Below, in pieces: positions 9,457-64,000 of a stretch of DNA of 64,000 bases. This stretch comes from Ptychodera flava. Lineage: Eukaryota; Hemichordata; Enteropneusta; Ptychoderidae. The notes beneath the pieces are model-generated. The model saw only the letters and a program-made list of their open reading frames with translations, was not told the DNA's origin and did no database searches. The stretch is taken from positions 4,252,501-4,316,500 of the forward strand of contig NW_027248277.1 of the NCBI RefSeq assembly GCF_041260155.1, in the 5' to 3' direction. Positions within the stretch are counted from its first letter, which is position 1, and each line of letters opens with the position of its first letter. The position numbers and the translations under genes are program-made.

Positions 9457-11241
9457 AGTCCCCGCGGACGAAGTCCGGCGGGGACTTATAGATTGGGTCC
9501 CGTCTGTGCGTCCGTCCGTCCGTCCGTCCGTCCGTCCGTCCGTCCGTCATCAACAGTTTCTCAGACACTGCCAAACCAATTTCGTTCAAACTTGGCACAA
9601 AGGCATAGCACTATGACCTACAGATGCACGTCGATTTATTTTGTGATACGATCGAATTTGGCTGCGAGGCGGCCATTTTGTTGCGATTTTTCATGTCTTT
9701 GGACCATAACTCAGACATCCTTGAGCAGATTATGTTCAAACTTGGCACAAAGGCATAACACTATGGCTTTCATATCCATGTCAAATAATTTTGCGATATA
9801 ATCCAATATGGGCGCGAGGCGGCCATTTTGTTGCGATTTTTCATGTCTTTGGACCATAACTCAGACATCCTTGAACAGATTCTGTTCAAACTTGGCACAA
9901 AGGCATAACACTATGGCCTACATGTGCATGTCAAATTATTTTGCGATACGATCCAATATGGCCGCGAGGCGGCCATTTTGTTTGCGATTTTTCGTGTCTT
10001 TGAACCATAACTCAAACATCCTTGAACCGATTCTGTTCAAACTCGGCACAAAGGCATAACACTATAGCCTACACATGCATGTCAAATTATATTGCGATAC
10101 GATCCAATATGGGCGTGAGGCGGCCATTTTGTTGCGATTTTTCATGTCTATGGACCATAACTCAGACATTCTTGAACCGATTCTGTTCAAATTTGGCACA
10201 AAAGCAAAACAGTATGCCCTTCATATGAACACCAATTTATTTTGTGAAATGATCCAATATGGCTGACAGGTGGCCATTTTTTTGCGATTTTTTCATGTCT
10301 TTGAACCGTAACTCAAACATCCTTGAACGGATTTTGTTCAAACTTGGCACAAAGGCAAAGCACGTACTATGGCATGCATATGCATGTATCAATTAACCTT
10401 GCGATAGGATCCAATATGGCTGCAGAACTGCCATTTTGTTGGAATTTTGCATGTCTTTGAATCATAATTCAAAGGTCATTACACCCATTTGTCCAAACTT
10501 GGCACAAAGATCAAGCACTATGGCATACATGTCAATTTACTTCGTGACATGTTCCAATATGGCTGCCAGATTGTAAATTTTTTTCCAATATCTCTGCCCG
10601 ATGGTCTCTTTTGGATTTTTTCATGTCTTTGAGGCTTAATCATATGCAAATATTCCTTAACCAATGTTGTTGAGACTTGGTACAAAGATAAAGTACTATG
10701 GCATACATATGCATGTCTACTAATTTTGTGCTATGATCCATATGGTCAAGAGACAGCCATTTGATTTCAATTTTGGTGTGATTTTTTCATGTCTTTGAAA
10801 CATAAACATAGGTCACTGTCCCTCGATGGACTGATTTTGTTCAAACGTGATACGAAGATGAAATACTATGGCTGCATTCTTGTGCACATTAAATTGTTTC
10901 ATTATATGATCCGAAATGGCTGATGGCTGATTACAACAACATACCCAATCCCATAGCATTTCGAAAATTCCACCAAACCATGTGTATAGTATGTGCCGTC
11001 ATGACACTAGAGGTAGTGAGGGCATCGTTAAGTGTGATATAATCAAAAGTTCCTTCAGTGGTCATTACGGCAGAGATGAGTCATTTATTGAACGTTCCTC
11101 AGATTACTTTATTATGCAAGTCACAGGCCTGATGCACCCGTTGCATCAATGTCATTCCACAGCGACCTAGACCACAGCTACATAGACACCAAAGATTATA
11201 ACAAAATGGACAAGCGGGGACTGTGTCATCAACGATGACTT
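9457..11241 (+). mobile_element. AGTCCCC-type element with central tandem repeats
   Basis: It begins with a hairpin (AGTCCCCGCGG...CGGCGGGGACT) and ends with GGGGACTGTGTCATC followed by a second small hairpin (GTCATCAACGATGAC). Between them is a CCGT run and an array of ~148-bp units. Related copies sit at 17,200 and 32,539. No reading frame of note, so it is non-autonomous. Confidence 0.75.
9555..10940. repeat. ~148-bp tandem array
   Basis: About nine units, recognised by TTGTTCAAACTTGGCACAAA, ACACTATGG, GATCCAATATGG and CGGCCATTTTGTTGCGATTT in fixed order. The first five units are closely alike and later ones decay progressively towards 10,940, which suggests recent spread at the left end. 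Confidence 0.9.
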
Positions 11242-13068: not shown

Positions 13069-14131
13069 ACACGGCTTTTGAGAGTTTCAGCCCTTTCTTC
13101 AGTTATACCTTGCTGGTGCGTTCGTTATTGACTTTGTCAAATTTAATCCGGTGATAATCTGGTGAGAGCGTCCACAGATTAGTAATTTACCCTTGATTAC
13201 TTTGGCTAATTAGGCACTCAAACTCATCAGATAATAGACTAAATTACCACCTTGCTTGCTTTGGCGAATTAGGCAATCAAACTGGTCAGATAATAGATGC
13301 AGCATGTTGATAAAACGTATACGCAAGATTATTAAGGGCAGTGCTAAGTTAAGACCGAAACACCAAAGGTTGGTAGAATATATCTTTATTAGCGATACAA
13401 CGAAACACCTACACATCCCTGGGGACGGACATTTAGACAACAACCTGTGGACTGGCCTAGAGAGGCACTTTGAAATAGTAAAGAACCAATCAGATATGTT
13501 CCCGAAACCTTCAAATGCATCCAGGTCCTCTAAACAATACAGCAATCATCCGGTTTTGACTTTAATCTTGACATTTTTTAAGAATGTGTATCAATGAGAT
13601 AAATTATCTTTAAAGAATTGTCAAAAGGGATAAATTTACAATTTTGAAAAGCAGATTGCTTTAAATACTTAATTTTTATATACTACTTGAGCATTAAATT
13701 CGATAATTAGTTTTGAAATTTTCACAAGAAAAATTGATAATTACTAAATGCTTTGAGTTAACCCTCTCTTAGAGAGCATATTCTGTTACTTTTACTGTTC
13801 ATCTTATAATCACAAAATAGTTCCAATTGTGTTTAGTATAGTTGTGCCAGTCAGTTCATCTTCAAGAATTATCCATGCCCTTCCTTACACATCCAATGTG
13901 CCGAATTATCATCTTAGAAAGGATTTGTGAGCGGATAAGGGTAAACTTGAAGTGAGTACAGCTTGTATACTGATTACTGTACATTTTGTTGCAGTATACG
14001 AATAAACCATTTCAAAGGTATTTACATCGTCTGATCGTATATTTTTGTCACTGGCTTACCTAAATATGACTAAACTTGTTTAGACGACTTGCATTAAAGT
14101 TTGTCTTTCGTGGGAGTATCTTTACTAGTAA

Positions 14132-15906
14132 GGGATGGACCATTAGATCTTGGGAGGGGGGGTGGTCACAATGAAATTGTGAATTTTTTTTTACTATTGT
14201 AAATTTCTAAAAAAAAAAATTTCCAATTGAGATTAGCTGTGCAATTTTTTTTTCAGAGTAAATTTTCAGATTTATAATTTTTTTTTTAGTTCGTCGCTGT
14301 CTGAGGATAAAGAGGGCAAAGATGTGGTGCAAAGCACCACAAGCGGCCACGCAAGCGGTCACGGGGGGAGGTCAGGAGGGGGGTGTTCCCCCCTGCTGTT
14401 GGAGCTTTTGAAAAAAAAGAGATTAAAATGGTGTTATTTGGTGGCACTTGGGGAGTATTTTTGCGGGGGAGGTCCGTTGGAGTTTTTGAAAAATAGAGAT
14501 GAAAATGGTGTTATTTGGTAGCACCTGGGGAGTATTTTTGCGGAGGAGGTCAGGAGGGGGGTGTCCCCCCTCCTGCCGTCGGAGTTTTTGAAAAATAGAG
14601 ATGAAAATGGTGTTATTTGGTGGCACTTGGGGAGTGTTTTTGCGGAGGAGGTCAGGAGGGGGGTGTCCCCACTCCTGCCGTCGGAGTTTTTGAAAAATAG
14701 AGATTAAAATGGTGTTATTTGGTGGCACTTGGGGAGCATTTTTTCAGATTACACATCTTCCTCTGAAACATGGTCTTCTTGCTCCTCAGTAGCTTCCTAT
14801 AGTTTTGAAAATTGACTATTTTGGTTTCCTGGCTTCCCTTTCTACAGCATTGTGAAATGCCTACATTCACCCCACCAAATATCATGCATATCTCATGATT
14901 TACAATTGATTTTGACAAGTTGAGAAGCTGTTTGCAAAATATAGTGAAGTTTGCATATTTGTGTTTTCAGAGCAATTGTTGCCCTTTTTGATCAAAACAT
15001 CTATTTCTCTGTAGCAGCATGTCCAAACTGATTGGATGTGTATAGATGTGGTGAAATTTCAATATTTGTCTTTTTAGGGCAATTTATGCCATTCATGGTC
15101 AAAAAATCTGTATTCTCTGAAAGGGCTTGTCCAATTTCTTTGGAATTTGCTACATAAGTCCCTTAAGATTTGTTTAAATCATGCTCTTTTTTGTGGTGGA
15201 AAAATTCTTCAGATAATTGTCATTCAGCATTTGCTACACACAAATGATTATTCATGCAGATTTATTCAGTATTTGCTATCGAGAAACTTTTAAATTTCAA
15301 CCCTATTGTGTGTTTTTGTGTTGGGATTTGTCGGATAGATGGCACTCTACGTAGTGTATTGTTCAGCCATTCTTGCATTCATCATTGCAATAAAATGCTG
15401 AGAAAAAAAATGAACCTGATGTGGCCTGCATCTGTTTACCTTGATCTTAAAAGGCAAATATAACTTTCTGTCTTGACAACCATACCATAGTTTCAATGTT
15501 TTACCTAGTGTACCTGCTTGGTTTGTACGCAGGAAACAAGTAGAAAACAGGCTCTATAATTTTATAATTTTCAAGTGATCAGAATACAAAAGTCCTGAAA
15601 AGATAAGATAATCACATCTTCCAGTATAAGGGATACAGTCACTCTAAATGTATAAATTAAAATTAAAAATGTGCCTGGAGGATCTACTAAAAATACAGAA
15701 AGTTGCTTCCTGTCGGTAAAATCTAAAAAAATTCAAGATTTTAAAGACTTTTGCAGATTTTTTTTTACGCATTTGTCTTCTTATTTATTTTTTTTTATTT
15801 TGCAAACTAGTTTGAAGATTTTTTTTTCCCTAACTTTCTGCTCTGAAAATTTTTTTTTCTGTTTTTGACCACCCCCTTCCAAGGTCTAATACCGGTAGTC
15901 CATCCC
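14132..15906 (+). mobile_element. Harbinger-like non-autonomous element (TAA target duplication)
   Basis: The ends are inverted: GGGATGGACCATTAGATCTT on the left and, reversed, GGGATGGACTACCGGTATTAG on the right, followed on both sides by G-rich sequence. The flanking triplet TAA is duplicated (14,129-14,131 and 15,907-15,909). A second copy lies reversed at 48,527-50,245 with TTA duplicated. A 3-bp TWA target is the hallmark of PIF/Harbinger transposons, so that assignment is an inference from established knowledge. The interior carries the GC-rich hairpin module, four ~115-bp tandem pieces (14,310-14,740) and ~120-bp monomers with GTGGTGAAATTTCAATATTTG. No transposase. Confidence 0.75.
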
Positions 15907-20805: not shown

Positions 20806-22780
20806 CAGGGGTTTCGTTAAAAGCCGGCCACCGGCCATATGGCCGGCTGTAAGGCGATTACGGCCGCCTGTAATTACCTGAAAATCATGTAATTGTTGTG
20901 CCGCTTACAGGAATGAATAGCTGGTAACAAATACAGCATATCGGTAAAAGTTTACAATGATCTGTATCCTTCATGCTGAATTACTTGTTTTCAACGCTTT
21001 TGCGAGGTTTTCAGTGAAAAGTTTGTGGTCGTTGGTTCACATCGGATACTGGTACAGCTATACAGCACGGAACCCGTCTGTACAACGTACACAGGGTGAT
21101 TGGAGGTTAGGGGTCATCGAGCGTGTGCAGTAACGCAACATAATGTCGGCCATACGTAGTTGAAGTTATTCTGTTCGGTCGAAATGGAAACAGTTAGACG
21201 GGTTGGTTGATTAAGAAGGGTACAGTGGATGGCAATTTCTCAGATCATTTTGATACTTATGCGGCGTTTTATGAATATCTCTGAGGAAAGGTTTCTTCTG
21301 AATGCATCAGCAATCGCCCACAGCTATCCGTGGCCGCAGATTGTGTTAAACAACGGCTTGCTTGTCAATGTAGTCAACGTTCGCGTTCGTTCTTGGATTT
21401 TAATGACTGAGAGCCAAACGTTTGACTTGCTTCAACTCTGTGGGCATATAAATATCAAAACAGAATAAATTGAAGGTGTAAACTTTAGCAGACTGTGACG
21501 TTGAGTGGTAGGCTGTAAAAACGGTCCGGAGAGACAGTGCTTTAGCACAGTTGTTTGTGGTTTCATACCACAGGCGCGATGTTTTCCGGGTAGTTTCTAT
21601 AAGTGTAGTTTATAGGTTTTGACGTTCTCTTCCGTAGCCTAATCACCAAGGTAAGAAACAGAATTATCCGGCCTGCCAAGAAAACTGCACGTTCTAGTCG
21701 AAAAATAAACACAAATCCTTCATTGAGTTACCTAGTTAGATGTGGAAGGATCTCGGCTGTCCAAAAAACACACTCATGTCACGGTAAAATGAAAACTTTC
21801 GAAGAAATCTGCCGCGTTTTGACAACATCGGCGTATCTGATGGCCACCATTGTAATAACGCAACTCATTATCATAATGGACGGTGTCTGCATATATAAAG
21901 TGTGAATCTCAGTCTGATGCCGTTGATGGCGTTGCTCACGGACCAATCAGCGATGCGGACGGCTTACAATTATGATAATGAGTTGCGTTATTACAACGGT
22001 GGATGCCAGAAATGCCTAGTTTGTCAAAACACATGAGAGTGTTTTTTGGACAGTAGAGAGCCTTCCGCGTCGAACGAGGTAACTGACTGTAGGATTCGTG
22101 TTTATTTTTCGACTAGAACGGGCAGTTTTCTTGGCAGGCCGGATAATTCTGTTTCTTACCTTGATGATTAGGCTACGGAAGAGAACGTCGAAACGTATAA
22201 AATATAACTTCTGGAAACTACCCAGAAAACATCACGCCTGTGTTTCATACACCGTACACGGCAATGCAGGAAGTAGGAAAATTGAATTTAATATACCAGC
22301 CACTGTACACATTTATCGCCAAGTTCGAGACGGATTTCGCGCACCAAAAGCCACAATAATTCTTCCAAAAAACCAACATCGATGGCTCCAAATACATCTC
22401 TGAATTCATATTTTCTATGCTCTTTGCGTCAAAGATGATCTCCAATGCATTTTTGAGTGTGGTTTCCGAAGGGACCCATGCTTTCAACATAAAACGAACA
22501 CTTTTTTACAACAGTCATTCATGATTTGAAAGTAGCGGCACCTTGATTCAGGCTATCTATACTGTTGTCTCTGATCGTTTGAAAAATGCAAATACTTTTT
22601 TAATAAAGTTATCATGTGTGATTGATGTACTGTTTTGTCGAGCTATTATAGCTAATTTGGAACTGTGTTGGGGGGGGGGCTGCCGCAATATCCAAACATC
22701 CTCATGCTTGAACATTGGTACGGCTTGGCCGCCTGTAATTTTCATTTGGCCCCCTGTTTCAAAACTTAGTGAAACCCCTG
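20806..22780. mobile_element. 1,975-bp element with CAGGGGTTTC ends
   Basis: The left end CAGGGGTTTCGTTAA and the reversed right end CAGGGGTTTCACTAA form short inverted repeats, flanked by ACATG on both sides (20,801-20,805 and 22,781-22,785). Unit 2 has the single ACATG at the empty site near 35,760. GC-rich subterminal sequence (GCCGGCCACCGGCC, GGCCGCCTGTAATT at both ends) is notable. No transposase-like frame. Confidence 0.85.
21557..22252. repeat. ~700-bp palindrome inside the CAGGGG element
   Basis: A left arm from GTGGTTTCATACCACAGGCG through TTGACGTTCTCTTCCGTAGC to ATTATCATAATGG is mirrored on the right, centred near 21,905. The arms keep GGCAGGCCGGATAATTCTG on both sides. Such a structure could form a long hairpin RNA if transcribed. 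Confidence 0.8.
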
Positions 22781-22941
22781 ACATGACTTCAGAATTTTTA
22801 TAACATTTTCAGTTCTGCCTGAAAGCAATAATATAAAATGGCTGGATAATTGATAAATTATATCTATTTAAAGTACGTTTAGATGTTTCAGTATAAATTT
22901 TAAAGAAACCATTAAATAACCATAAAAGTCACATTCTGCAG

Positions 22942-23080: not shown

Positions 23081-24981
23081 GGTGAAGAATTAATGGAAAA
23101 GCTTGGATGTCAGGTGTTTATCCTTGTCTCAGAAGATGGAATCTGTTCCAGTTTTATGGGAAGTGAAGTCTTCCTGAAAGATTTCTGTTCCTCTGGATTG
23201 AGAGTAAAACCAATGGATGTTCTCAGAATGAGGAAAATTATTCAGACACAACCAAACTATTGGATCGCAGAAGACAATGGATGTAGTCAACAAATATTGT
23301 ACAGAAGTAAACAACAAGAAACAGACAGCAATATTCAAAATAACCAATCTGTAAAATGTGAGATGGTAGAGACATCCCATTGCTTGTATGATACAATCTC
23401 CATGACAACTGTTAATGAGAGAGTTGAAATGGATGGTTACTTGGCAACCAATGACATGAACAGTGAGTTAATAAATGATAGAAAAGGTGTCAACGATGAT
23501 TATACTAAACAGAAGTGGTCTCTGAATCAGATATTGCAACTTTCGATGAAGAGGAAAAGACAACTGGTGTTTCCACAGAAACTGATGCAAATTGGGAGAT
23601 TTCTGACACAGAAACAATATCAGATGTGAATGATGAAACAATAAGTACTGTAAGTGGGCATAGCAGTGATATTGCTGCATCACCATGCAACCAAAGTGAT
23701 GATGACCAAAACTGTGGGAATCCCTTAGACTATGGGGATGGAAAGGTGTGTGAAAAAGATGACATAAAGACAAAAGAAGTAAACATAGAAACACAAGAGG
23801 GTGCTGTTGATAAGCAAGACATGCCAAAGAAGAGCAATATGATGAGAAAGCAGAGAAATTTGACAACTCAGGAGTTTAAGAAGACTAGAAAAAAGAAAAA
23901 AGGTGATAGCAAAGAAAAAAGGAAGAAAACCACTAGGATGGTTTCTGGAAGAAGACATTATATCCGTCGGAAGATCAGTTCCGAAAAGGATGTTGAACAT
24001 CACAGAGAAATGGTAAAGAAGGTCTTCACAGAATCAAATGATAATGCTGTATATTTATGTGAAAGATGTGGTTTGTCATTTAAGAGTTCCGGATTATTAG
24101 AAGTGCATCAACAGAGAGCAGCTTGCTCTGAAAGGAAATGTCGATTTTGTGGAAAGAAGTTTCCGCACAGAGAGTGGCAAGAACATTTGCTTAATTATCA
24201 TGTGACAGAATTAATTGTTTATGAGTGTCATGTATGTGAAAAACAGTTCTGGCAACATGCAACTTATTACAATCATGTGAAAGTGCATCAAGTCAACGGA
24301 AACCCTTTCACTTGTAATGAGTGTGGAGCCACATTCACATCAATGAAGTCATTGCGCAGTCATAAAGTGATACATGGTAGAGAACTTAAATGCGATTTCT
24401 GCGAATATAAGACTTATCATAAATATCAACTAAACATTCACATGAAACGACATAGCGATAGTGAAGCGTTCGACTGTAAATTCTGTGGTAAGCATTTGGT
24501 CAGTTCAGGTAGTCTGAGCATGCACATCCAACGATTTCATATTCAGTCGAAATATCAGTGTAAAGATTGTGGGAAGGAGTTTTCATTTCAAAGCATCTTA
24601 AATGAACACATAGCACGACATCATCAGGACAACATCAATTGTTTCATCTGTGAAAAGTGCGGTAAAGGTTTTCACACTAAGACACTACTTCATGACCACT
24701 TGAGACATACACACAGTGAAAGCCCTGTACAGTGTGAGGTCTGCGGGAAACAATTTAAACACCGCTCAAAGCTTTGGGTGCACTCACGAATTCATAACAA
24801 AGCCATGTATCAATCACACCAGTGTGAACTTTGCCCTAGAAAGTTCTTAAGTAGGTCAAATGTCAAAATGCATATGATATCAGCCCATTCTGATGAAAGA
24901 CCTCATCAGTGTCAGCTGTGTGGGTATTCCTGTAAACTTAAAGGTAACTTGACAAAACACATGAAAGTACACAACAGATAG
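23081..24981 (+). pseudogene. Zinc-finger gene A, last exon, frameshifted
   Basis: The exon starts GGTGAAGAA after a strong acceptor (pyrimidine tract ending TTTCCAG) and should encode GEELMEKLGCQV, a Ser/Asp/Glu-rich middle, a Lys/Arg-rich stretch, ten C2H2 fingers and one C2HC finger. Relative to genes B and C one base (a C) is missing after 23,515, codon 142 counted from the internal ATG at 23,093, so the first frame ends at 23,629. The finger region stays open from 23,515 in the shifted frame (488 codons). Either the gene has lost its N-terminal connection, or an assembly error removed a base, or an internal start gives a finger-only protein. Apart from this the exon is almost identical to gene B. 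Expected role: nuclear DNA-binding regulator, from the finger family, with no target known. Confidence 0.8.
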
Positions 24982-24995
24982 AGGGTCATGTCCAG

Positions 24996-25060
24996 CAGGG
25001 TGAACTTTGTAGGGGAAAGTTCATTAGCAGGCAAAAGGTCAAAGTGCACATAAATCTACC
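24996..25060 (+). pseudogene. Fossil zinc finger behind the stop of gene A
   Basis: Just past the stop, CAGGGTGAACTTTGTAGG and onward translate as QGELCRGKFISRQKVKVHI, an evident relative of finger 10 (HQCELC..KF.SRS.VK.H). The first cysteine has become glycine and the last histidine is gone. It is in a different frame from the gene. The same remnant follows genes B and C. Confidence 0.7.
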
Positions 25061-25103
25061 AATTGTTATGAATTGATCGATCATGAGACTACACAACATT
25101 TAA

Positions 25104-25359
25104 CCCTTTTCCTGCCAGACAGTATCACTTCCCCATCAGCCAAGTCAGTAAAAAGCGGTATTGAGCATGACGTTTTTTCATCCACTTGGTCTGTTATAGA
25201 ATCTTTAGTCCTTAAAAATCAATTTTACGGTATTTATGCTTTCAACAGTCTTCAAAATGTTGAATATTATGTTAAAATACACCATATGGAATATGTTGTA
25301 TTTCATTAATTTTAACCATCTTGACCTGATGGTGAAATATGGACTTGGCGGGAAAAGGG
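25104..25359. mobile_element. 256-bp MITE with TTAA target, unit 1 copy
   Basis: The ends CCCTTTTCCTGCCA and, reversed, CCCTTTTCCCGCCA are bounded by TTAA on each side. TTAA targets are typical of piggyBac and some related superfamilies. The same insertion is at 38,085-38,339, so it predates the split of units 1 and 2. Confidence 0.75.
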
Positions 25360-34492: not shown

Positions 34493-35919
34493 TGTGAGAG
34501 GAATTAGTGTTGACATATCAACTTTCAGTTGGTAGAGGGAACCCAGACTGAATCTGATCTAGACAAACTGTGCTCCAGTACAACAGTGCGCTGTTATGTT
34601 TTAACCAATTTCATTCAAAATTATAACTGTTTGCATTTTGGTGTATCCAAAAAAATGATAAGAGCAAGAAAAGTCGATGTGGTCAAGGGTTAAAATCGAT
34701 GTAGTCAACAATTTTTTGAATTATATCTTATGAGGAAAGACTCCATCACATTACATTGTCAGGTGCAATTATCAGCTAGGCAGTAATATAAGTAATATAT
34801 ATAAAGGAATCCACACTTCAAAAGTTGAAACATTGTCTAGCAGAAAGCCAGATGAAGTCAAAATAACACAAACATCAACACACTGGTGTCTGACCTCATG
34901 GTAGACAATGTTTCAACTTTTGCAGACAGAGTTGATTCCTCTATCACAGCCTAGCTAATAATTGCATGTGATAAACTCTTTCCTCATAAAATGTCATTAA
35001 GAAACGGTTGACCACATCGACATTACTGTTGTACCACATCAATTTTACTGTTGTACCACATTAAATATAACTGTTGTTTTTATCAATTTTTCAACGTACT
35101 AAAATGCAAATATAGTACAGGGAAGAGCTATGAAAGTCATTTTGGTTGTATGATATTATCAGTTGTTTTGTAAATTTGGCCCCTTATGTGTGTTGTGAAT
35201 TCCAAATGATGTGTACACACATGCCTAAACTGATTTCTTTCGAACCCAGCGTTAAGACAGCATATGATAGCAAACATATGATATGAACATCAATTGTTAT
35301 TAAAGTAACTGATCCAATGCATTTAATTGACAGTCATTAAATACAAAATCCTGTATGCTGTTACTCTGGTTCAGCGTGAATGAAGTTTACTCACATGATT
35401 GAAATGTGAACTAAAAGCTCACCATGTTAATAAACAGATCAGGAAAGAGACAACACATCAGTTTCTTTGGTACACACAGAATAAGTTCTTTAAAACCTTT
35501 TGAATGCAAATGTCAATTTTGTCAACTATGGGAAATATAACCAAGGTAATTTTCTTTTCAAATACTGACAATTTTTTAAATATTTTTCTAAAATTTTGTC
35601 CCAAAACAACATTCACTGATGGGTAATGACAATTTAGTCCAAAATTATCAAAAAAGAACAGAAAAAAAAATTAGGGAAACTTTTGTTCTAGAATTTTAGT
35701 GGGAAACATTACAGCACACCGGCAAAATGAATTACCCATAATTCAGTTTGATTTGCACACATGACTTCAGAATTTTTTTAACATTTTCAGTTCTGCCTGA
35801 AAGCAATAATATAAAATCGCTGGATAATTGATTAATTATATCTATTTAAAGTATGTTTAGATGTTTCAGTATAAATTTCAAAGAAACCATTAAATAACCA
35901 TAAAAGTCACATTCTGCAG
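34493..35919. other. Unit 2 intron, 3' part
   Basis: Conserved intron matching 19,531-20,805 plus 22,781-22,941. No gene. Confidence 0.7.
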
Positions 35920-36058: not shown

Positions 36059-37962
36059 GGTGAAGAATTAATGGAAAAGCTTGGATGTCAGGTGTTTATC
36101 CTTGTCTCAGAAGATGGAATCTGTTCCAGTTTTATGGGAAGTGAAGTCTTCTTGAAAGATTTCTGTTCCTCTGGATTGAGAGTAAACCAATGGATGTTCT
36201 CAGAATGAGGAAAATTATTCAGACACAACCAAACTATTGGATCGCAGAAGACAATGGATGTAGTCAACAAATATTGTACAGAAGTAAACAACAAGAAACA
36301 GACAGCAATATTCAAAATAACCAATCTGTAAAATGTGAGATGGTAGAGACATCCCATTGCTTGTATGATACAATCTCCATGACAACTGTTAATGAGAGAG
36401 TTGAAATGGATGGTTACTTGGCAACCAATGACATGAACAGTGAGTTAATAAATGATAGAAAAGGTGTCAACGATGATTATACTAAACAGAAGCTGGTCCC
36501 TGAATCAGATGTTGCAACTTTCGATGAAGAGGAAAAGACAACTGGTGTTTCCATGGAAACTGATGCAAATTGGGAGAATTCTGACACAGAAACAATATCA
36601 GATGTGAATGATGAAACAATAAGTACTGTAAGTGGGCATAGCAGTGATATTGCTGCATCACCATGCAACCAAAGTGATGATGACCTAAACTGTGGGAATC
36701 CCTTTGACAATGGGGATGGAAAGGTGTCTGAAAAAGATGGCATAATAAAGACAAAGGAAGTAAACTTAGAAACAAAAGAGGGTGCTGTTGATAAGCAAGA
36801 CATGCCAAAGAAGAGCAATATGATGAGAAAGCAGAGAAATTTGACAACTCAGGAGTTTAAGAAGACTAGAAAAAAGAAAAAAGGTGATAGCAAAGAAAAA
36901 AGGAAGAAAACCACTAGGATGGTTTCTGGAAGAAGACATTATATCCGTCGGAAGATCAGTTCCGAAAAGGATGTTGAACATCACAGAGAAATGGTAAAGA
37001 AGGTCTTCACAGAATCAAATGATAATGCTGTATATTTATGTGAAAGATGTGGTTTGTCATTTAAGAGTTCCGGATTATTAGAAGTGCATCAACAGAGAGC
37101 AGCTTGCTCTGAAAGGAAATGTCGATTTTGTGGAAAGAAGTTTCCGCACAGAGAGTGGCAAGAACATTTGCTTAATTATCATGTGACAGAATTAATTGTT
37201 TATGAGTGTCATGTATGTGAAAAACAGTTCTGGCAACATGCAACTTATTACAATCATGTGAAAGTGCATCAAGTCAACGGAAACCCTTTCACTTGTAATG
37301 AGTGTGGAGCCACATTCACATCAATGAAGTCATTGCGCAGTCATAAAGTGATACATGGTAGAGAACTTAAATGCGATTTCTGCGAATATAAGACTTATCA
37401 TAAATATCAACTAAACATTCACATGAAACGACATAGCGATAGTGAAGCGTTCGACTGTAAATTCTGTGGTAAGCATTTGGTCAGTTCAGGTAGTCTGAGC
37501 ATGCACATCCAACGATTTCATATTCAGTCGAAATATCAGTGTACAGATTGTAAGAAGGAGTTTGCATTTCAAAGGATCTTAAATGAACACAGAGCACGAC
37601 ATCATCAGGACAACATCAATTGTTTCATCTGTGAAAAGTGTGGTAAAGGTTTTCACACTAAGACGCTACTTCATGACCACTTGAGATATACACACAGTGA
37701 AAGTACTGTACAGTGTGAGGTCTGCGGGAAACAATTTAAACACCGCTCAAAGCTTTGGGTGCACTCACGAATTCATAACAAAGCCATGTATCAATCACAC
37801 CAGTGTGAACTTTGCCCTAGAAAGTTCTTAAGTAGGTCAAATGTCAAAATGCATATGATATCAGCCCATTCTGATGAAAGACCTCATCAGTGTCAGCTGT
37901 GTGGGTATTCCTGTAAACTTAAAGGTAACTTGACAAAACACATGAAAGTACACAACAGATAG
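36059..37962 (+). pseudogene. Zinc-finger gene B, last exon, early frameshift
   Basis: The acceptor and the GEELMEKLGCQV start match gene A. One A is missing from an A-run near 36,184 (AGTAAACC against AGTAAAACC in A and C), codon 39 from ATG 36,071, so the first frame soon stops. From the ATG at 36,190 a 590-codon frame runs to the end: acidic Ser/Asp/Glu-rich part, basic part (near residues 205-255), then C2HC finger 1 and C2H2 fingers 2-11 from about residue 282. An N-terminally shortened but finger-complete protein is possible, and a homopolymer sequencing error is also possible. It differs from gene A in the finger region only within 37,544-37,705. Confidence 0.8.
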
Positions 37963-37976
37963 AGGGTCATGTCCAG

Positions 37977-38041
37977 CAGGGTGAACTTTGTAGGGGAAAG
38001 TTCATTAGCAGGCAAAAGGTCAAAGTGCACATAAATCTACC
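37977..38041 (+). pseudogene. Fossil zinc finger behind the stop of gene B
   Basis: Same remnant as behind gene A (GELCRGKFISRQKVKVH), identical in sequence as far as I can see. Confidence 0.7.
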
Positions 38042-38084
38042 AATTGTTATGAATTGATCGATCATGAGACTACACAACATTTAA

Positions 38085-38339
38085 CCCTTTTCCTGCCAGA
38101 CAGTATCACTTCCCCATCAGCGAAGTCAGTAAAAAGCGGTATTGAGCATGACGTTTTTTCATCCACTGGGTCTGTTATAGAGTCTTTAGTCCTTAAAATC
38201 AATTTTACGGTATTTATGCTTTCAACAGTCTTCAAAATGTTGAATATTATGTTAAAATACACCATATGGAATATGTTGTATTTCATTAATTTTAACCATC
38301 TTGACCTGATGGTGAAATATGGACTTGGCGGGAAAAGGG
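38085..38339. mobile_element. 255-bp MITE with TTAA target, unit 2 copy
   Basis: Counterpart of 25,104-25,359, with the same ends and the same flanking TTAA. Confidence 0.75.
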
Positions 38340-42490: not shown

Positions 42491-42608
42491 TAACTGACAC
42501 TATTATTTTTTTTTTTATCTTTTATTTAAAATTCGCCAGGAGTTTCACATCGAACATGCCTTACGGCAAATGTAATATACTTGAAAAGTACAAAGCAAAC
42601 TACAATAA

Positions 42609-45600
42609 TTAGCAAGATTTCATTATTTTTTCAAAAGCTTCTACAAATTTGCTATCATGTCGTAATTCTTTCTCAGTCTTATATCTTAAAACACACTCCT
42701 GTCTGAAAAGTACATCTATGGGTACTTTCCCATCCCCGAGCCAATATTTATGAATAGACCATTTTCCTAGCAAAATAAACAGTTTGATCACTTCTCCATT
42801 GAATTTGGTGCAAAGCCATTTTTCTGCATTACAATTGAAAATAATGTCAACATTCGTCAAAACTACATTTCTACTCAAAAAATTACAAATGATAATTGAA
42901 ATTTTTACCCAAAGACGTTTTGCCACTCGGCATTCCAAAAATTTATGTTCAAAGAATCGGGAACCTGACATACATTACAATTCACAGAATCGATTTTTTT
43001 CCAATAATACAAATACTTATTACATGGTAATAACCTATGTAGCAATTTCCATTGAAATTCTCTTAATTTAATTTCTCTTGTACATAAATAAATATTCTTC
43101 CAAATCATCTGACTGTGAACAAGTGTTTTTAAGTTATTTACTCCTAGTGACGAATACCATTTATCGATTGCAAGTTTGTCAGTGCTAGAACATTGTTGCT
43201 TTAGGAGAATACAATAGATGGATTTACAAGTGATTTTGTCTATTGGAATAAATTGACTGCAAACTCTCTCCTGTAAGTGACTTGTAAAAAATATGATATT
43301 TCTTACTCCACCTTTGCGTTACATTTCGTTTTGCAATGACATTATCACATGCTATGTACCAGTCATTTAAAACTCTGACATAAAAATGAGGTATTAATGA
43401 CGATACATTTCTTGGTAAGGAATTCCAACATCGGTTTTGTTGTAATAAATCACATGACTCATCGATAGTAAAGTAATGCCATGGTATTGCAGCCCAAATG
43501 CTGCCTTTACCAGAAACCAATCTTTTTACCCAAATGGCATTGACGGCACGAAGCTGTTTATCAACATTGATACTCTTGACACCACCCTTGTGGTAGTCTT
43601 TTTCCAGTGTCGTTTGTTTAATTGGACGTTTTCTTTTGATAAAAACATCAACAAGTTTTTGCACTTTAGCTTTCACTTCATCGGGTATACCGATTACTGA
43701 AGCTAAAAACAGAATTTGCGAAATACCTAATACTTTCACAATAACAACTCTCCCATAAAGTGTTAAATTTCTTCTGCCCCAAGTATTTAAAATATTTCCA
43801 GCTTTTTTATTTTATTTGACCAATTTAAATCTTTGCATTTTTCATCATCATACCCAAAATAAGCTCCAAGGTTTTCACAGGCTCATTTGTCCATTCAATC
43901 CCATCCACCTTATCAGTACAGTTTCTATTTTTACCCACCCACATTGCTTTCGACTTTCGACTACTCATTTTTAATCCACAGCACTTATGAAAGTCCCCCA
44001 TAACATTTAAACAATCTTAATAGAACCCTTATCTTTCACAAAATTGTCGTATCATCAGCTAGTAAAGAGGTTTTCGCAGAGTTGTTATTTGGAATAGAAA
44101 TACCAGAAATTTGCTTGTGTTGTCTAACTTTACATGCAAGGACTTCTATGACAAGTAAAAAACAGTAATGCAGAGAGAGGACAACCCTGACGTACTCCTC
44201 TCTGAAGCGAAAAGAAATCGGAATTCCAACCTTTATACGAAATGCTGCTAGAAATGTTGGTGTATAATACTTTCACCCATTGAATAAAATTGTGACCAAA
44301 ATTAAACCGTTTCAATACGTTAACATGAAGTTCCAGTTCACACTGTCAAAAGCTTTTTACATAATCAATAAACAAAATTGCACCCTCTAAGTTGTTCTTT
44401 TTGTATAGTGCAGGTTATCAGTGATGAGACGTATATTTTCGCCAATATAACGTCCTTTCATGTAACCAGTTTGATCACGATCAATGACAAAAGGTAAAAC
44501 ACATTTCAGCCTGTTTGATAATACATTGGTAGCAATCTTGTAATCAATATTCAACAATGACACAGGCCTCCAATTATTTAAATCACTTTCCATGCCCTTT
44601 TTGAATAATAGAGATATCATACCTCGCTTTTGTAACGTTGAAAGTTCGCCAAAAATCAAAGCGTCATTCAAAGAAGAAATAACTAAATATTTATATCTTG
44701 CCAGAAGAAACGATAAAATTCTACTGACAATCCGTCGCAACCCGGAGAACTTGTTTCCTTGCATGGTCTTTAGCGCGTGGAGGCATTCCTCTTCTGTGAG
44801 AAGACCTTCGCATAGCTCCTGCTGTGAATCAGATAGCTGTGGTAAAACCGTGTCCGATAGAAAACTGTCCAACGTCATTCCACTTTCTCTGTGCTTATAC
44901 AGCTCGCTGTAGAAGTTACGCTGTTCTCGGAGAATTCCATCTGTGTCTGTCACCTGTTTTCCATCACTTGTCACAAGCTCTTTCATTTCTTTTTTTGCAG
45001 CGTTATGTTTTCCATGTTTAAAAAGTACTTGGTGCTTCTTTCCCCCTTTTCAATCCATGTGGCGCGAGATCGTATTTGTGCCCTTCTGATAATAACGTGT
45101 ATAGCTCTTCAAGCCGCTTCTTAGTTTCACCGTATCTTTGTATATTCTCATCCGATGGATTTGTGATCATTAATCTTTCATATTCTTGTAGCTTCTTTTC
45201 AAGGTTCGGTATTTTTTTGTTGTAGTTCTTTGTCGCGTTCCGCGTAAATTCTATAGCATATTCTCTAACTTCTCCTTTTAAAAGATCCCACTTCACTTGG
45301 TTGTATCAAAGCTTTTACGTTGACAGTTCTGTATAAGTTCTTTTACATTTGTAACGAATTCTTCCTTATCCAAAAGTTTATTGTTGAATTTCCACGTTCC
45401 TGGTCCCCTCTTGTCGACGCTTAACTGAATCTCCAGGGATACAGCCTATGGTCTGACAGTATGGCAGGTCTGATGTCTGTCTTCTTGACTTGACGAAGAA
45501 GATGCTTAGCAAGAAAATGTAGTCCAGGCGGCTGTGAACTGGCGATGGTGTGAGTCTGCGCCATGTGAAATGACGTTTTCCTGGGTGCAATTTTCGCCAA

Positions 45601-46152
45601 ACGTCACATAGACTGAAACGCTGAATGAAATTCCGTAAAACGGCTGTAGAGCTGTCATTTGTACGGCGTGAATTTGCATTGGATACTCTGTCCATATTTT
45701 TGTCCAGTGCGCAGTTGAAATCACCTACCACTATTGTGTTCTCGTACAAACAATTTTCGTTGACGTAATCGTTGCATTTTTCGAAGAACTCTTTTCTTTG
45801 TTTCATACCATTTGGGCGTAAATACCACAGACTGACATTTTCAAACCATTGTGACTCCCATTTATTATGATAATTCGGCCATCATTGTCTTTCCACACAG
45901 TGTCAACGTCAAAGTGAAAATTTTGACGGACCAATATAGCTGTACCTCTGCTATAATTGTCACCTTTCGAATAGAAAATTCTGCCACACCATTCTTTTTC
46001 CCACAGATCAGTGTCTCTTCCGTCTCCGTGAAGTTCTTGTAAAATTGCCACATCTGTCTTTTGAAATTTAAGCCATCGAAAGATATGTTGTCGCTTGGTT
46101 TCTCGTTGAAACCCCTGACGTTCAGGGTAATAAATCTGATATTGTTCATCAT
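42609..46152 (-). pseudogene. LINE ORF2 (endonuclease and reverse transcriptase), broken
   Basis: The start MMNNIRFITLNVRGFN shows the endonuclease LNVRG motif. Further motifs in shifted frames are ILQELHG, GDFNCALD and RLDYIF. The reverse transcriptase shows NNWRPVSLLNIDYK, DQTGYMKGRYIGENIR and RGVRQGCPLSALLF. The C-terminal part (43,739 to 42,609) has the Trp-rich text usual after the polymerase. At least six frame breaks are visible. The expected YADD-type catalytic box between about 44,130 and 43,740 is not in any long open frame. Confidence 0.85.
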
Positions 46153-47268
46153 TAGGATCGCAACTTCCGTCTTCTTTTACGATTCTTCTTGGTGTCTGTT
46201 TTCTTCACAGTTGTTGACGTTAATAATGGCGGTGATTCTGCAGATAACTCCGAGACGTCCTCTCGAGACGTATTATATCTCTCATCGTCACCGCTAACGT
46301 CAGTTACATTTTCATCGTCCACATCTGTCACGTTTTTATCATCTTGTAGACTCTCTGACGTTACAGCTATTTTCGACTTGTTTCCTTTACTTTCCCGTAA
46401 AAAAGCAATGATAGAACTTTGCTCTTTTCCGTCGGATGTGGTAGTCGCTTTACCCTTCTGAATGACAGTTGCAGTCTTTGGAGTACTTTCTCTTTGTATC
46501 GGTACTTCACGTTGTTTTGATGGAGGATCGTTGACCGTGTCTTTTCTGGTTGTTTTACAGTCTCTTGCCATGTGTCCATCTCCTGAACATTTCCTGCACT
46601 TTACCGGCTTTGCGCAAACGGAACTTGAATGTCCTTCCTCAAGACATTTACCACAGCGTTGTTGGAAATTTGCCATGGGTTGTTTGCAAATGATCTTAGC
46701 CGAAAATGTTCCGATTTTAATGAAGTCTGGTAACGGTGCTTTCGGCTGTTCAACATACACAGACCGATCTCCATTGAAGATGTTGGTCAGCTTGCCTCCG
46801 AACCTCCACTTTAGACGAGTTATGTCTGTTTTTAGCTGCAGCCCATGTTGTTAAGGGTGGTCATAATCGCACTATCATCAAGCGATAGAGGCAAGTCTTT
46901 TATGGTTACTCTGAGCCAGTTCTCATGCAGTTCTCTTCTAAAGGGGTTTCGTCCCCATAGTGGAACAGACTTACCCGTAATGCTAGCCCGTGCTGAAGTA
47001 AAATTGTTCTGTCAGCTTCATCACTTAGATAAATTCGCCACAATCCCCTTACTCGTTGTAATCCTTCAAGACTATCGATTGTAACGACTTCTGCTATTGC
47101 TGCTAAAACCTCCTCACCTCTTAGCCAGTGGCTGCTATCTCTTGGTTCCACGTCTGACTGTTTGAGAAAGAGCGGTAGAACTTGAGCGCTGTCTTGGCTG
47201 GCTGTAGCATTCCGGTTGTCGGCAACCACCTGTGCGTACAGTGCTTTGTCTTGACTCGCCGTGGCCAT
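46152..47268 (-). pseudogene. LINE ORF1 (zinc-knuckle RNA-binding protein), broken
   Basis: The N-terminal part (47,268 down to 46,906, MATASQDKALYAQVV...) continues after a frame break into 46,760-46,152. That part contains CGKCLEEGHSSSVC and CRKCSGDGHMARDC, two CCHC knuckles, followed by a Ser/Lys/Asp-rich tail ending RRRKLRS. In LINEs such proteins coat the element RNA. The stop TAA shares its last A with the ORF2 start (TAATG at 46,150-46,154), and the knuckle pair lies about 45 residues into the second piece. Confidence 0.85.
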
Positions 47269-47490
47269 ATTGGCTTGTTCGGTACCAAAACTAACAAAAA
47301 TCCTTCTTACACGAACAAAATGTTCACTTTGTTACCTTAACACTGCTCACAAACAGTTTAAGTAACAGATGACTGAGACTTAGATGCAAAACACCACTGA
47401 TTTCGCTAGAAATATACGATTTTTAGAGCGTTCCGAAAACCTGCTTCCGTAGATTGCAGAACAGAGCGCCCTAACTGACACTATTATTTT

Positions 47491-47800
47491 ATTCAGAACT
47501 GTACACATATGTCACTGTTCTATATATAAAGCTGACAAAACTGTGCATTGCTGCATTAAAAGTCAAACCGCACAACTGTTGCTGTACAAAAATACTAAAG
47601 CAACACTGCTGTGCATTTATCTCTGCATGCATTCCTATGTCGTTTTCATGTTCTTTGCGCATTCTTGTTAGTTGACAGAGAAAAAAAATGAGGAGCAAAA
47701 AGCCCCGCATCACCACATCATTTTTGCAATATGTCTAGGATGAGAAACAATCTTATATTTGTGACAATTTATGCTAAACGGAAAAATAAATAGAATAAAA
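47491..47800. other. Unit 2 end, after the LINE
   Basis: The first ~130 bp match unit 1 (29,552-29,680). After GCATTTATC the two units differ. No gene. Confidence 0.5.
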
Positions 47801-48526: not shown

Positions 48527-50245
48527 GGGACGGACCATTAGATCTTGGGAGGGGGTAGTCAAAAACAGAAAAAAAAATTCAGAGCAGAAAGTTAGGGAAA
48601 AAAAAATCTTCAAACTAGTTTGCAAAATAAAAAAAAAATAAATAAGAAGACAAATGCGTAAAAAAAAATCTGCAAAAGTCTTTAAAATCTTGAATTTTTT
48701 CGATTTTACCGACAGGAAGCAACTTTCTGTATTTTTAGTACATCCTCCAGGCACATTTTTAATTTTAATTTATACATTTAGAGTGGCTGTATCCCTTATA
48801 CTGGAAGATGTGATTATCTTATCTTTTCAGGACTTTTGTATTCTGATCACTTGAAAATTATAAAATTATAGAGCCTGTTTTCTACCTGTTTCCTGCGTAC
48901 AAACCAAGCAGGTACACTAGGCAAAACATTGAAACTATGGTATGGTTGTCAAGACAGAAAGTTATATTTGCCTTTTAAGATCAAGGTAAACAGATGCAGG
49001 CCACATCAGATTCATTTTTTTCTCAGCATTTTATTGCAATGATGAATGCAAGAATGGGTGAACAAGAAGAAACACATCAATAATGATAAAACAACATATC
49101 AAGTCATTTTGTATTATTTTGCTTTTAAAAAGGCATTTTCAATTCTTTTTCTCAAAAAACAGCCTCAAAAAACAAGAGCAACACATTTCTTAACATTCAA
49201 CAATACACTACGTAGAATGCCATCTATCCAACAAATCCCAACACAAAAACACATAAAAGGGTTGAACTTTGAAAGTTTCTCGATAGCAAATACTGAATAA
49301 ATCTGCATGAATAATCGTTTGTGTGTAGCAAATGCTGAATGACAATTATCTGAAGAATTTTTCCACCACAAAAAAGAGCATGATTTTAACAAATCTTAAG
49401 GACTTATGTAGCAAATTTCAAAGAAATGGACAAGCCCTTTCAGAGAATACAGCTTTTTGACCATGAATGGCATAAATTGCCCTAAAAAGACAAATATTGA
49501 AATTTCACCACATCTATACATATCCAATCAATTTGGACATGCTGCTACAGAGAAATAGATGTTTTGATCAAAAAAGGGCAACAATTGCTCTAAAAACACA
49601 AATATGCAAATTTCACTATATTATTTAGCTTATTTTAGCTTCTCAGCTTGTCAAAATCAATTGTAAATCATGAGATATGCATGATGTTTGGTGGTGTGAA
49701 TGTAGGCATTTCACCACACAGAAGAAAGGGAAGCCAGGAAACTAAAATAGTCAATTTTCAAAACTATAGGAAGCTACTGAGGAGCAAGAAGACCATGTTT
49801 CAGAGGAAGATGTGTAAGCTGAAAAAAATGCTCCCCAAGTACCACCAAATAACACCATCTCTATTTTTCAAAAGCTCGTACAGCAGGATTAGGGACACCC
49901 CCTTCCTGACCTCCCCCCGCAAAAATACTCCCCAAGTGCAACCAAATAACACTATTTTAATCTCTATATTTCAAAAGCTCCAACGGCAGGAGGAGGATAT
50001 CCCCCTCCTGACCCCCCCCCCCCCCCGACCGCTTGCGCGGTCGCTTGTGGTGCTTCACACATCTTTGCCCTCTTTATCCTCAGACAGCAACGAACTAAAA
50101 AAAATTATAAATCTGAGAATTTACTCTGAAAAAAATTGCACAGCTTATCTCAATTGGAAAAAAAAATTTTTTAGAACTTTACAATAGTAAAAAAATTTTC
50201 ACAATTTCATTGTGACCCCCCTCCCAAGATCTAATGGTCCATCCC
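48527..50245 (-). mobile_element. Harbinger-like non-autonomous element, second copy (TTA duplication)
   Basis: Reverse-oriented relative of 14,132-15,906. The ends GGGACGGACCATTAGATCTT and, reversed, GGGATGGACCATTAGATCTT are well matched. TTA is duplicated (48,524-48,526 and 50,246-50,248). It lies just upstream of the gene C leader, between the minisatellite and exon 1. It contains the same GC-rich hairpin module near 50,030 and the same ~120-bp monomers. No transposase. Confidence 0.8.
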
Positions 50246-50270
50246 TTAGTTACAGCACAGCGTTATCGGT

Positions 50271-54749: not shown

Positions 54750-54813
54750 GTAAATTTGTTATTTCAATCAGACACAGATTCATATTAAAGTTTGTTGTTC
54801 TTACTCTTTCCAG

Positions 54814-56718
54814 GGTGAAGAATTAATGGAAAAGCTTGGATGTCAGGTGTTTATCCTTGTCTCAGAAGATGGAATCTGTTCCAGTTTTATGGGAAGTGAA
54901 GTCTTCCTGAAAGATGTCTGTTCCTCTGGATTGAGAGTAAAACCATACGATGTTCTCAGAATGAGGAAAATTATTCAGACACAACCAAACTTTTGGATTG
55001 CAGAAGACAATGGATGTAGTCAACAAATATTGTACAGAAGTAAACAACAAGAAACAGACAGCCATATTCAAAATAACCAATCTGTAAAATGTGAGATGGT
55101 AGAGACATCCCATTGCTTGTATGATACAATCTCCATGACAACTGTTAATGAGAGAGTTGAAATGGATGGTTACTTGGCAACCAATGACATGAACAGTGAC
55201 TTGATAAATGATAGAAAAGGAGTCAACGATGATTATACAAAAGAAAAGCTGGTCTCTGAATCAGATGTTGCAACTTTGGATGAAGAGGAAAAGACAACTG
55301 GTGTTTCCATGGAAACTGATGCAAATAGGGAGAATTCTGACACAGAAACAATATCAGATGTGAATGATGAAACAATAAGTACTGTAAGTGGGCATAGCAG
55401 TGATATTGCTGCATCACCATGCAACCAAAGTGATGATGACCTAAACTGTGGGAATCCCTTAGACTATGGGGATGGAAAGGTGTCTGAAAAAGTTGACATA
55501 AAGACAAAGGAAGTAAACTTAAAAACAAAAGAGGGTGATGTTGATAAGCAAGACATGCCAAAGAAGAGCGATATGACGAGAAAGCAGAGAAAATTGACAA
55601 CTAGAGAGTCGAAGAAGACTAGAAAAGAGAAAAAAGGTGATAGCAAAGAAAAAAGGAAGAAAAGCACTAGGGTGGTTTCTGGAAGAAGACATTATATCCG
55701 TCGGAAGATCAGTTCCGAAAAGGATGTTGAACATCACAGAGAAATGGTAAAGAAGATCTTCACAGAATCAAATGATAGTGCTGTATATTTATGTGAAAGA
55801 TGTGGATTGTCATTTAAGAGTTCCAGCAATTTAGAAGTTCATCAACAGAGAGCAGATTGCTCTGAAAGGAAATGTCGATTTTGTGGAAAGAAGTTTCCGC
55901 ACAGAGAGTGGCAAGAACATTTGCTTAATCATCATGTGACAGAATTAATTGTATATGAGTGCCATGTTTGTGAAAAACAGTACTGGCAACGTGGAACTTT
56001 TAACAATCATGTGAAAGTGCATCAAGTCAACGGAAACCCTTTCACTTGTAACGAGTGTGGAGCCACATTTTCATCAACGAAGTCATTGCGCAGTCATAAA
56101 GTGATACATAATGGTAGAGAACTCCACTGCGATTTCTGTGAATATAAGACTTATTATAAATATCAACTTAACATTCACATGAAACGACATAGCGACAGTG
56201 AAGCATTTGACTGTAAATTCTGTGGTAAGCATTTGGTCAGTTCAGGTAGTCTGAGCACCCACATACAACGATTTCACATTCAGTCTAAACATGAGTGCAC
56301 AGATTGCAAGAAGGAGTTTTCTTTTCTTCATGAGTTGAACCATCACATAGCACGACATCATCAGGACAACATCAATCGTTTCATCTGTGAAAAGTGCGGT
56401 AAAGGTTTTCACACTAAAATTCTACTGAACGGACACTTGAGACAAAGACACAGTGAAAGCCCTGTACAGTGTGAGGTCTGCGGGAAACAGTTTAATCACC
56501 GCTCAAAGCTTTGGGCGCACTCACAAATTCATAACAAAACCATATATCAATCACACCAGTGTGAACTTTGCCCCAGAAAGTTCATGAGTAGGTCAAAGGT
56601 CAAAGTGCACATGATATCAGCCCACTCTGATGAAAGACCTCATCAGTGTCAGCTGTGTGGGTATTCCTGTAAACTTAAAGGTAACTTGACAAAACACATG
56701 AAAGTACACAGCAGATAG
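54814..56718 (+). CDS. Zinc-finger gene C, last exon: 11-finger protein, intact
   Basis: The exon opens GGTGAAGAA after a pyrimidine-rich acceptor (CTCTTTCCAG), and 630 codons are open from the first internal ATG at 54,826. Order: GEELMEKLGCQVFILV at the start; an acidic, Ser/Thr-rich stretch to about residue 240; a Lys/Arg-rich stretch 246-294 that should serve nuclear import; finger 1 at 321-345 (C2HC); fingers 2-11 at 349-628 (C2H2). Only the link between fingers 10 and 11 (SDERPHQC) resembles the standard TGEKP linker, while others are longer and irregular, so not all fingers need bind DNA side by side. Expected role: sequence-specific DNA binding in the nucleus, a family inference. No KRAB, BTB or SCAN domain is seen. 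The gene's own target is unknown. It is clearly more diverged from A and B than those are from each other. Confidence 0.9.
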   Translation, partial: GEELMEKLGCQVFILVSEDGICSSFMGSEVFLKDVCSSGLRVKPYDVLRMRKIIQTQPNFWIAEDNGCSQQILYRSKQQETDSHIQNNQSVKCEMVETSHCLYDTISMTTVNERVEMDGYLATNDMNSDLINDRKGVNDDYTKEKLVSESDVATLDEEEKTTGVSMETDANRENSDTETISDVNDETISTVSGHSSDIAASPCNQSDDDLNCGNPLDYGDGKVSEKVDIKTKEVNLKTKEGDVDKQDMPKKSDMTRKQRKLTTRESKKTRKEKKGDSKEKRKKSTRVVSGRRHYIRRKISSEKDVEHHREMVKKIFTESNDSAVYLCERCGLSFKSSSNLEVHQQRADCSERKCRFCGKKFPHREWQEHLLNHHVTELIVYECHVCEKQYWQRGTFNNHVKVHQVNGNPFTCNECGATFSSTKSLRSHKVIHNGRELHCDFCEYKTYYKYQLNIHMKRHSDSEAFDCKFCGKHLVSSGSLSTHIQRFHIQSKHECTDCKKEFSFLHELNHHIARHHQDNINRFICEKCGKGFHTKILLNGHLRQRHSESPVQCEVCGKQFNHRSKLWAHSQIHNKTIYQSHQCELCPRKFMSRSKVKVHMISAHSDERPHQCQLCGYSCKLKGNLTKHMKVHSR

Positions 56719-62551: not shown

Positions 62552-63654
62552 AATTCAGTGAGCAGGCATGTTTTTCACATACCGGTATTATGCTGGTCAG
62601 AAGGCAGTCAATTGACTTACTGTTACATGGTGTTGCAGTTACCTCGTCATCTATGTGATAGTGCTGTAGTTTTTTCCTGCTAAGGCCTTTGTTGTGATTT
62701 GATAAGAACAAAGACTTGGTGCCAGTCTTAAAGATGAGATGATATAGATTGAAGGAATTGGTGAAAGAAAATTTTCAGTCTTATCCAAAATGTTATTTTT
62801 CTCCCATAGAATAACCACAGGGATAACGGCCATTTTGAATTTCAAATATCTGGAAATCTTAGGTAATTTGGTTTCAAAATAATGCATGGTAAACCCTGGT
62901 TTTTATTCTTGCTTTTGTAAGAGAATTGTCAAAAGTTTCATCGAGGAAAGTTTGAGCAAAAATTTAAGTCTTTCACTTATCAATGTCATTATAATACACA
63001 TTTTACTCTTTTCCTTTCAATATCATCATCATACAAACCTGGTAAGTTTACGGTCCTCAGTTAAAATTATCTATGCAACCATTAATTGTGCAAGCTATAC
63101 AGCTTGGCCTGAACTTTTTAAGTGCATGAAGCCAAGCCTAGCTGATGTGTGTACCAGTATGCAATGACAAACCAAAAGTAACACAGAATCCGTAAGGAGA
63201 GTTTGTGATGCAGAAGTGCATCTATGGCTAATAATCCTTCCCATTTAGGCTTCATTCACAGACACCACGAGGGGAGGGGGATTAGAATCAAAACTAGTTT
63301 CTCTGGTTTTTCAAATGCCTGAATTCAAATGCACCCCCTTCCACCTCGTGACTTCCTAAATTTTGAAATCTCCCCTCAAAATACAACCGGCCTGATTTTG
63401 GAATGTGTGTTTGTGTATCTCTGTGTTTGTCTTCAACAAAAGAAGATGCTGATGTGACACATTTTCTCCTATACAAAAACTTCATCTTGTACAATAGAAA
63501 AAGTGATCACACATAAAAAAGTTTTGAAACAGGATGATTTTCCTCATCAGTCAGTCATAATTGTACAGTATAAAAGGGACATTAGCATACCTCTTCCCCA
63601 ATTTTTCAGCCTATTTTTTCTTCTATGTATCAATCAGCTTCCAAGTTGCCAATG
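62552..63654. other. Stretch without recognised gene
   Basis: Several frames of 60-95 codons exist on both strands, none with a recognisable domain or splice context that I can support. Confidence 0.4.
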
Positions 63655-64000
63655 TGTTGAAAGGGGGGCTTACAAGTTGCCAATACCGGTATATGGAAAG
63701 GGCTTACAAGTTGCCCATGTATGGAAAGGGGGATTACAAGTTGCCAATGTATGGAAAGGGGGGCATACAAGTTGCCAATGTATGGAAAGAGGGGTGCTTA
63801 CAAGCTGCCAGTATGTGGAAAGGGGGCCCAACAAGTTGCCATATATGGAAAGGGGAGGGGGAGCTAACAAGCTGCCAATGTATAGAAAGGGGGGTTTACA
63901 AGTTGCCAATGTATAGAAAGGGGGGTTTACAAGTTGCCAATGTATAGAAAGGGGGGTTTACAAGTTGCCAATGTATAGAAAGGGGGGTTTACAAGTTGCC
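63655..64000. repeat. 31-bp G-rich minisatellite, cut by the window end
   Basis: Units of the form ACAAGTTGCCAATGTATAG followed by AAAGGGGGGTTT. The first units vary in length and sequence, while the last three or four are identical, so homogenisation increases to the right. 31 is not a multiple of three, so the open frames here are not genes. Confidence 0.9.

Follow-up and report, generated by a model that had tools for sequence, protein, structure and literature searches.

A divergent patch over fingers 7-8 of tandem C2H2 genes in Ptychodera flava is probably old divergence left between gene-conversion tracts

The window analysed here, a 64,000-nt stretch of Ptychodera flava DNA with zero unknown bases, consists of three mostly collinear tandem units, each of which carries one C2H2 zinc-finger gene with 11 fingers (genes A, B, and C; Table 1). 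Self-comparison of the window revealed that the A-B, B-C, and A-C blocks lie in the same order and are mostly collinear, apart from insertions and one inverted segment. Matches to Pfam zf-C2H2 were found in all three frames (E 1.9e-32 to 2.6e-29), and Pfam at E<=0.001 gave zinc-finger types only in the frames of A, B, and C, with KRAB absent. A search against solved structures returned generic C2H2 proteins such as ZNF568, CTCF, and PRDM9 and was uninformative, querying the window with the C protein by tblastn returned these three genes and nothing further, and a tRNA scan of the window yielded zero tRNAs.

Table 1. Features of the three tandem units, in positions of the 64,000-nt window.
Feature	Position	Strand	Basis or remark
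Gene A 11-finger C2H2 array	24058..24978	+	open frame 23509-24981
Gene B 11-finger C2H2 array	37039..37959	+	open frame 36145-37962
Gene C 11-finger C2H2 array	55792..56715	+	open frame 54754-56718
Patch in gene B, fingers 7-8 and linker	37544..37705	+	11 A/B substitutions; ungapped comparison, codon table
Patch in gene A	24563..24724	+	ungapped comparison
Patch in gene C, outgroup	56300..56461	+	comparison with A and B
Clean tract in B before patch	36776..37543	+	768 bp, 0 A/B substitutions
Clean tract in B after patch	37706..38121	+	416 bp, 0 A/B substitutions
Clean tract in A before patch	23795..24562	+
Clean tract in A after patch	24725..25140	+
Second A=B tract, away from fingers	35407..35770	+	25 consecutive variable sites with A=B (35420-35768)
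Segment where B tends toward C	36511..36775	+	9/16 consecutive variable sites unique to A
Finger 7 helix codons (-2 to 6)	37564..37587 (B); 56320-56343 (C)	+	strongly divergent, A/B vs C
Finger 8 helix codons (-2 to 6)	37654..37677 (B)	+	divergent, A/B vs C
LINE-type insertion in unit B	42491-47493	-

Several further features of the units were observed. Upstream of the fingers, gene A (near 23515) and gene B (near 36183) each have one base fewer than the other copies, and these single-base gaps break the long reading frame, which is uninterrupted in C; if real, such breaks weaken any selection argument for A or B. A decayed finger 10 copy follows directly after the stop codon, at 37974-38053 in B and at 24993-25072 in A; its local alignment score is 51, whereas 300 shuffles reached at most 30. 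A finger-like remnant was seen by eye past the stop of gene C as well. The LINE of unit B gave matches to reverse transcriptase, endonuclease (just below the Pfam cut-off), and a CCHC knuckle, each in a separate frame, and it is flanked by a 22-nt repeat (21/22 matching), with the uninterrupted site located in unit A near 29538. A long inverted copy, in pieces that are 85-97% identical, pairs 14129-15890 in the unit A region with 48537-50248 at the start of unit C. Unit A also holds ~2 kb (20806-22781) that are missing from B and C, within which lies an inverted repeat (21569-21779 and 22031-22242), and which are possibly a mobile element. Self-comparison additionally revealed local repeat arrays at 5823-6334, 7289-7648, 9574-10569, and 63637-64000.

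Comparing genes A and B base by base confirmed a count of 11 differences in one patch over fingers 7-8 that had been proposed in a sequence-only reading of the window, with substitutions at B positions 37544, 37552, 37553, 37564, 37575, 37592, 37641, 37665, 37687, 37704, and 37705. The same reading had described sequence free of differences on either side, and these clean flanks indeed possess zero substitutions and are longer than it had claimed, such that the downstream tract of B reaches 159 bp beyond the stop codon. It had also singled out three adjacent differences that match gene C; B does equal C at three of the 11 sites (37544, 37552, and 37553), which lie near one another but are not all adjacent. 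At the remaining eight sites, A equals C with B unique at six, and A, B, and C are all different at two, so that across the whole patch three changes are private to A, six are private to B, and two are ambiguous.

Because the clean regions differ from gene C at 5-7% of sites, constraint is no explanation for them. In the upstream tract of B (36776-37543) there are 52 sites where A and B jointly differ from C, and a row of 52 variable sites with A=B was obtained in 0 of 50,000 permutations and, in a second run, in 0 of 20,000. The second A=B run, that of 35420-35768, had P=0.0001 when evaluated on the 5' side alone. Upstream of the fingers, an excess of sites unique to A, where B=C, was seen at 36511-36775 (P=0.0006 in 16-site windows, 0.0076 in 12-site windows, and 0.066 in 8-site windows), whereas a run test found no long B=C run, the longest being 2 sites (P=0.96). 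This A-unique cluster, taken as 36511-36785, switches to the A=B run within ~10 bp, and with such mixed statistics it is possible that the switch marks a conversion edge. A further run of six sites with A=C and B unique falls within 20 bp at 34781-34800 (P=0.00045) and could be one complex mutation. Together, these observations give mixed evidence that sequence was exchanged with gene C.

How unusual the patch appears depends on the background. With 46 substitutions placed uniformly in 3,611 aligned columns, a clean run of at least 768 columns had P=0.0006 and a cluster of at least 11 substitutions in 162 columns had P=0.00075, and merging neighbouring changes gave P=0.0017 for the clean run and P=0.010 for the cluster. 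Uniform placement is the wrong background for judging the patch. Across the whole A/B alignment, with 172 substitutions in 7,914 columns, the densest non-overlapping 162-column windows contain 15, 15, 13, and then 11, 11, and 11 substitutions, such that the patch ties for fourth place behind three windows that all lie in the distal 3' flank, and at least 11 substitutions occur in ~5.6% of windows off the patch. Substitution spacing is over-dispersed in the whole unit and without the distal 3' flank, and it is still over-dispersed once the block formed by the patch and its clean tracts is removed along with that flank (P=5e-5; 0.0004 with neighbours merged). The unusual element is the long clean runs rather than the patch.

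Bringing in gene C as a yardstick, which cancels local rate and constraint, we obtained a three-way alignment with 235 gap-free variable sites. The share of these at which A and B differ was 50/135 upstream, 0/66 in the clean flanks (here running only to 37973, the end of the C alignment), and 11/34 in the patch, and while the clean flanks depart strongly from the upstream share (P=9e-11), the patch does not (P=0.69). On this measure the clean flanks look homogenised and the patch is normal. A two-rate hidden Markov model (HMM) of the 7.9 kb A/B alignment, with rates of 0.23% and 5.3%, beat a single rate by 97 in 2dlnL and returned 23 high segments, several of the short ones poorly supported and one a single column, with the patch among them. 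The 11/162 substitutions of the patch are compatible with the high rate (P=0.38), a fit that is partly built in, as high segments are defined by A/B substitutions. Distances among the three copies (AB/AC/BC) were 5.4/6.5/6.2% in seven upstream high segments, where this same definition biases the A-B figure upward, 7.0/6.1/7.9% in the patch outside helix codons, and 0.1/5.0/5.0% in low segments.

Taken as a whole, we consider the patch to be probably an unhomogenised island, in which old A/B divergence was kept between tracts of A-B gene conversion. In this scenario, A, B, and C would descend from a single 11-finger C2H2 gene by tandem duplication and would initially have been some 5-8% apart, and interlocus conversion between A and B would then have laid short near-identical tracts over much of both copies. 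This conversion, as two tracts or as a single discontinuous one, would have covered fingers 1-6 together with the preceding sequence and fingers 9-11 together with the first part of the 3' flank, and the 162 bp over fingers 7-8 would have escaped, by chance or through selection, thereby retaining the ancestral divergence. We infer that the clean tracts arose by conversion and that the patch sequence is B's own. Both A and B have private changes in the patch, which argues that they separated earlier there than in the flanks, and since the three copies are nearly equidistant there outside helix codons, as in the upstream high segments, the patch has the appearance of the divergence that the three copies had to begin with. 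The sequence-only reading had seen in the patch itself a conversion tract from a further paralogue; it was probably right about the process, but it is the flanks, more likely than the patch, that carry the mark of conversion, and no donor of the patch sequence turned up in the window.

Some observations sit less comfortably with an unhomogenised island. The patch is denser in substitutions than the 2.45% that A and B average beyond the block of patch and clean tracts (P=0.0023), its A/B synonymous divergence of 0.108, although it represents 3 changes only, is nominally above the top 250-column rate of 8.4%, and outside helix codons its A/B share is somewhat above that of the 5' side (P=0.063). 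The patch is also the place of greatest A-C difference, and its density of C-unique sites exceeds that of the clean flanks (P=0.0011). Synonymous divergence between A and C reaches 0.51 in the patch versus 0.15 and 0.10 beside it, which indicates that more than A-B conversion happened there. Finally, an island requires that there were two tracts or that one tract was discontinuous.

The excess over the unit mean speaks for a further reading, and the high synonymous values, both between A and B and between A and C, are what one would see if finger segments had been repeatedly imported: a fourth paralogue outside the window, closely related to A and B, could have given the tract over fingers 7-8 to B (or to A) after the arrays had become identical throughout. 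A tandem family with three copies may well include more members. We nevertheless hold such a donor to be unlikely. Within the window there is no further copy of the patch, with matches other than A, B, and C of 13-31 bp, and the 17- to 25-mers that enclose nine of the B alleles have a single occurrence in the window, in B itself. In the two collections searched, one stretch of viral_contigs and eight of genome_contigs fit a pattern and none was confirmed as a relative, but neither collection is meant for animals and an animal paralogue is not expected in them. Counted against C, moreover, the patch share of A/B differences is no larger than the upstream share, and therefore no donor is required. 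Gene C itself was considered as the source of the changes that give TDCKKEF and is unlikely, as B=C at only 3/11 sites and the two genes disagree at 37551, which lies between the shared positions 37544 and 37552; this exclusion is softened by the possibility of a later point mutation at 37551.

An origin in allelic variation between A and B is, in our judgement, quite improbable. Unequal crossing-over may have joined two haplotypes, or haplotypes may have been partly mis-assembled, and the patch would then represent variation in coalescence depth or an assembly chimera. Recombining haplotypes would also be expected to give a mosaic of low and high divergence, and the one-base frame breaks of A and B relative to C could be sequencing errors. 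The units, however, are arranged in tandem, are mostly collinear, and have different insertions, such as the LINE that is present in B and has no counterpart in A, and A-B divergence in the islands is about as deep as A-C divergence, which is not ordinary for alleles of one locus.

Evaluating A and B against gene C revealed a second kind of divergence in the same two fingers. C-unique sites are concentrated in the finger 7 and finger 8 helix codons (19/48) relative to other helices (22/216; P=4e-6), whereas in non-helix codons the patch (4/114) resembles the sequence elsewhere (30/543; P=0.49). Across all fingers, amino-acid differences between A and C fall in helix positions -2 to 6 at 22/88 positions versus 8/149 others (P=2.5e-5), and A and B may reasonably be taken to differ from C in specificity. 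The A/B changes in the patch are without the helix pattern seen for A/B versus C. In the helix core of finger 7, A and C differ at 12/18 bases, including synonymous changes at the conserved Leu and Asn. The helix and synonymous divergence between A and C is thus more than amino-acid selection alone would leave, and tentatively suggests that a block was replaced by sequence from a source not seen here. Other fingers of the same arrays were considered as donors for the finger 7 helices of all three genes and the finger 8 helices of A and C, and were unconvincing, with best matches outside the counterpart at 13-16/27 bases. For the finger 7 helix of C, the best match, in finger 5 of C (15), lies slightly above the counterpart in A (14), a difference for which no significance was computed.

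Given these helices, one could picture fingers 7-8 as a specificity module shielded from conversion, in which A-B conversion was purged by selection and both helices were overwritten almost wholesale, either in the C lineage or in the ancestor of A and B. We regard this as a long shot. Least probable of all, and by a wide measure doubtful, is diversifying selection on fingers 7-8 alone, through rapid point substitution in B, as one form of the selection focused on these fingers that the sequence-only reading had raised: 8/11 changes in the patch are nonsynonymous and these fingers have the greatest helix difference between A/B and C, but ~9/11 would be expected from site numbers, three changes are synonymous, A has private changes too, and selection on the patch leaves the 0/66 in flanks that are 5-7% from C unexplained. 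The counts are 8 nonsynonymous changes on 138 sites and 3 synonymous on 30, against a neutral expectation of ~9 and 2, and the helices show no enrichment either by site (3/48 helix sites versus 8/114 others) or by residue (2/6 in-finger A/B amino-acid changes in helix positions -2 to 6). Selection as the sole cause of the A/B patch is unsupported, and with so few changes weak selection is compatible with the data.

None of the entries returned by a literature search named the A/B/C locus, and the pattern stays within kinds already described, namely divergence islands or peaks between converting duplicates, for which selection is one possible cause (PMC3728101, PMC3924837, PMC2588116), and tandem C2H2 genes that change at DNA-contacting residues. 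The GOT1 paralogues of Tigriopus are duplicates subject to gene conversion that possess islands of divergence (PMC3728101), and like them the A/B pair contains short divergent stretches amid sequence kept similar by conversion; several populations were compared in Tigriopus, whereas each copy is represented here by a single sequence and the mosaic reaches into flanking DNA. For opsin exon 5 (PMC3924837) and the Drosophila block Pre28 (PMC2588116), paralogue divergence peaks are reported as possibly maintained by selection. Our patch shares with these a divergence peak with low divergence on either side, but it reaches 6.8% in 162 bp, is one of many islands, and has no nonsynonymous excess, while the Drosophila scan drew on related species and involved simulated peaks >15% in 200 bp (PMC2588116). 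PMC2443715 and PMC5363842 report the expansion of C2H2 genes in tandem with change at DNA-contacting residues, and the present locus is similar in its tandem poly-C2H2 genes and in the concentration of A-C differences in helix residues; relative to the clusters described there, it differs in that the frames of A, B, and C are without KRAB.

Should the doubtful reading of fingers 7-8 as a protected module be true, the scaffold would be homogenised by conversion while a two-finger reading head is kept distinct in each copy by selection, which would illustrate how separate target specificities can survive conversion in C2H2 clusters. For the probable reading, that of an unhomogenised island, the lesson is that a divergent patch between near-identical copies should be compared with an outgroup copy before any donor is postulated, and the A-B mosaic suggests that, where tandem duplicates undergo conversion, sequence that is simply old can resemble a recent import or a hotspot of selection.
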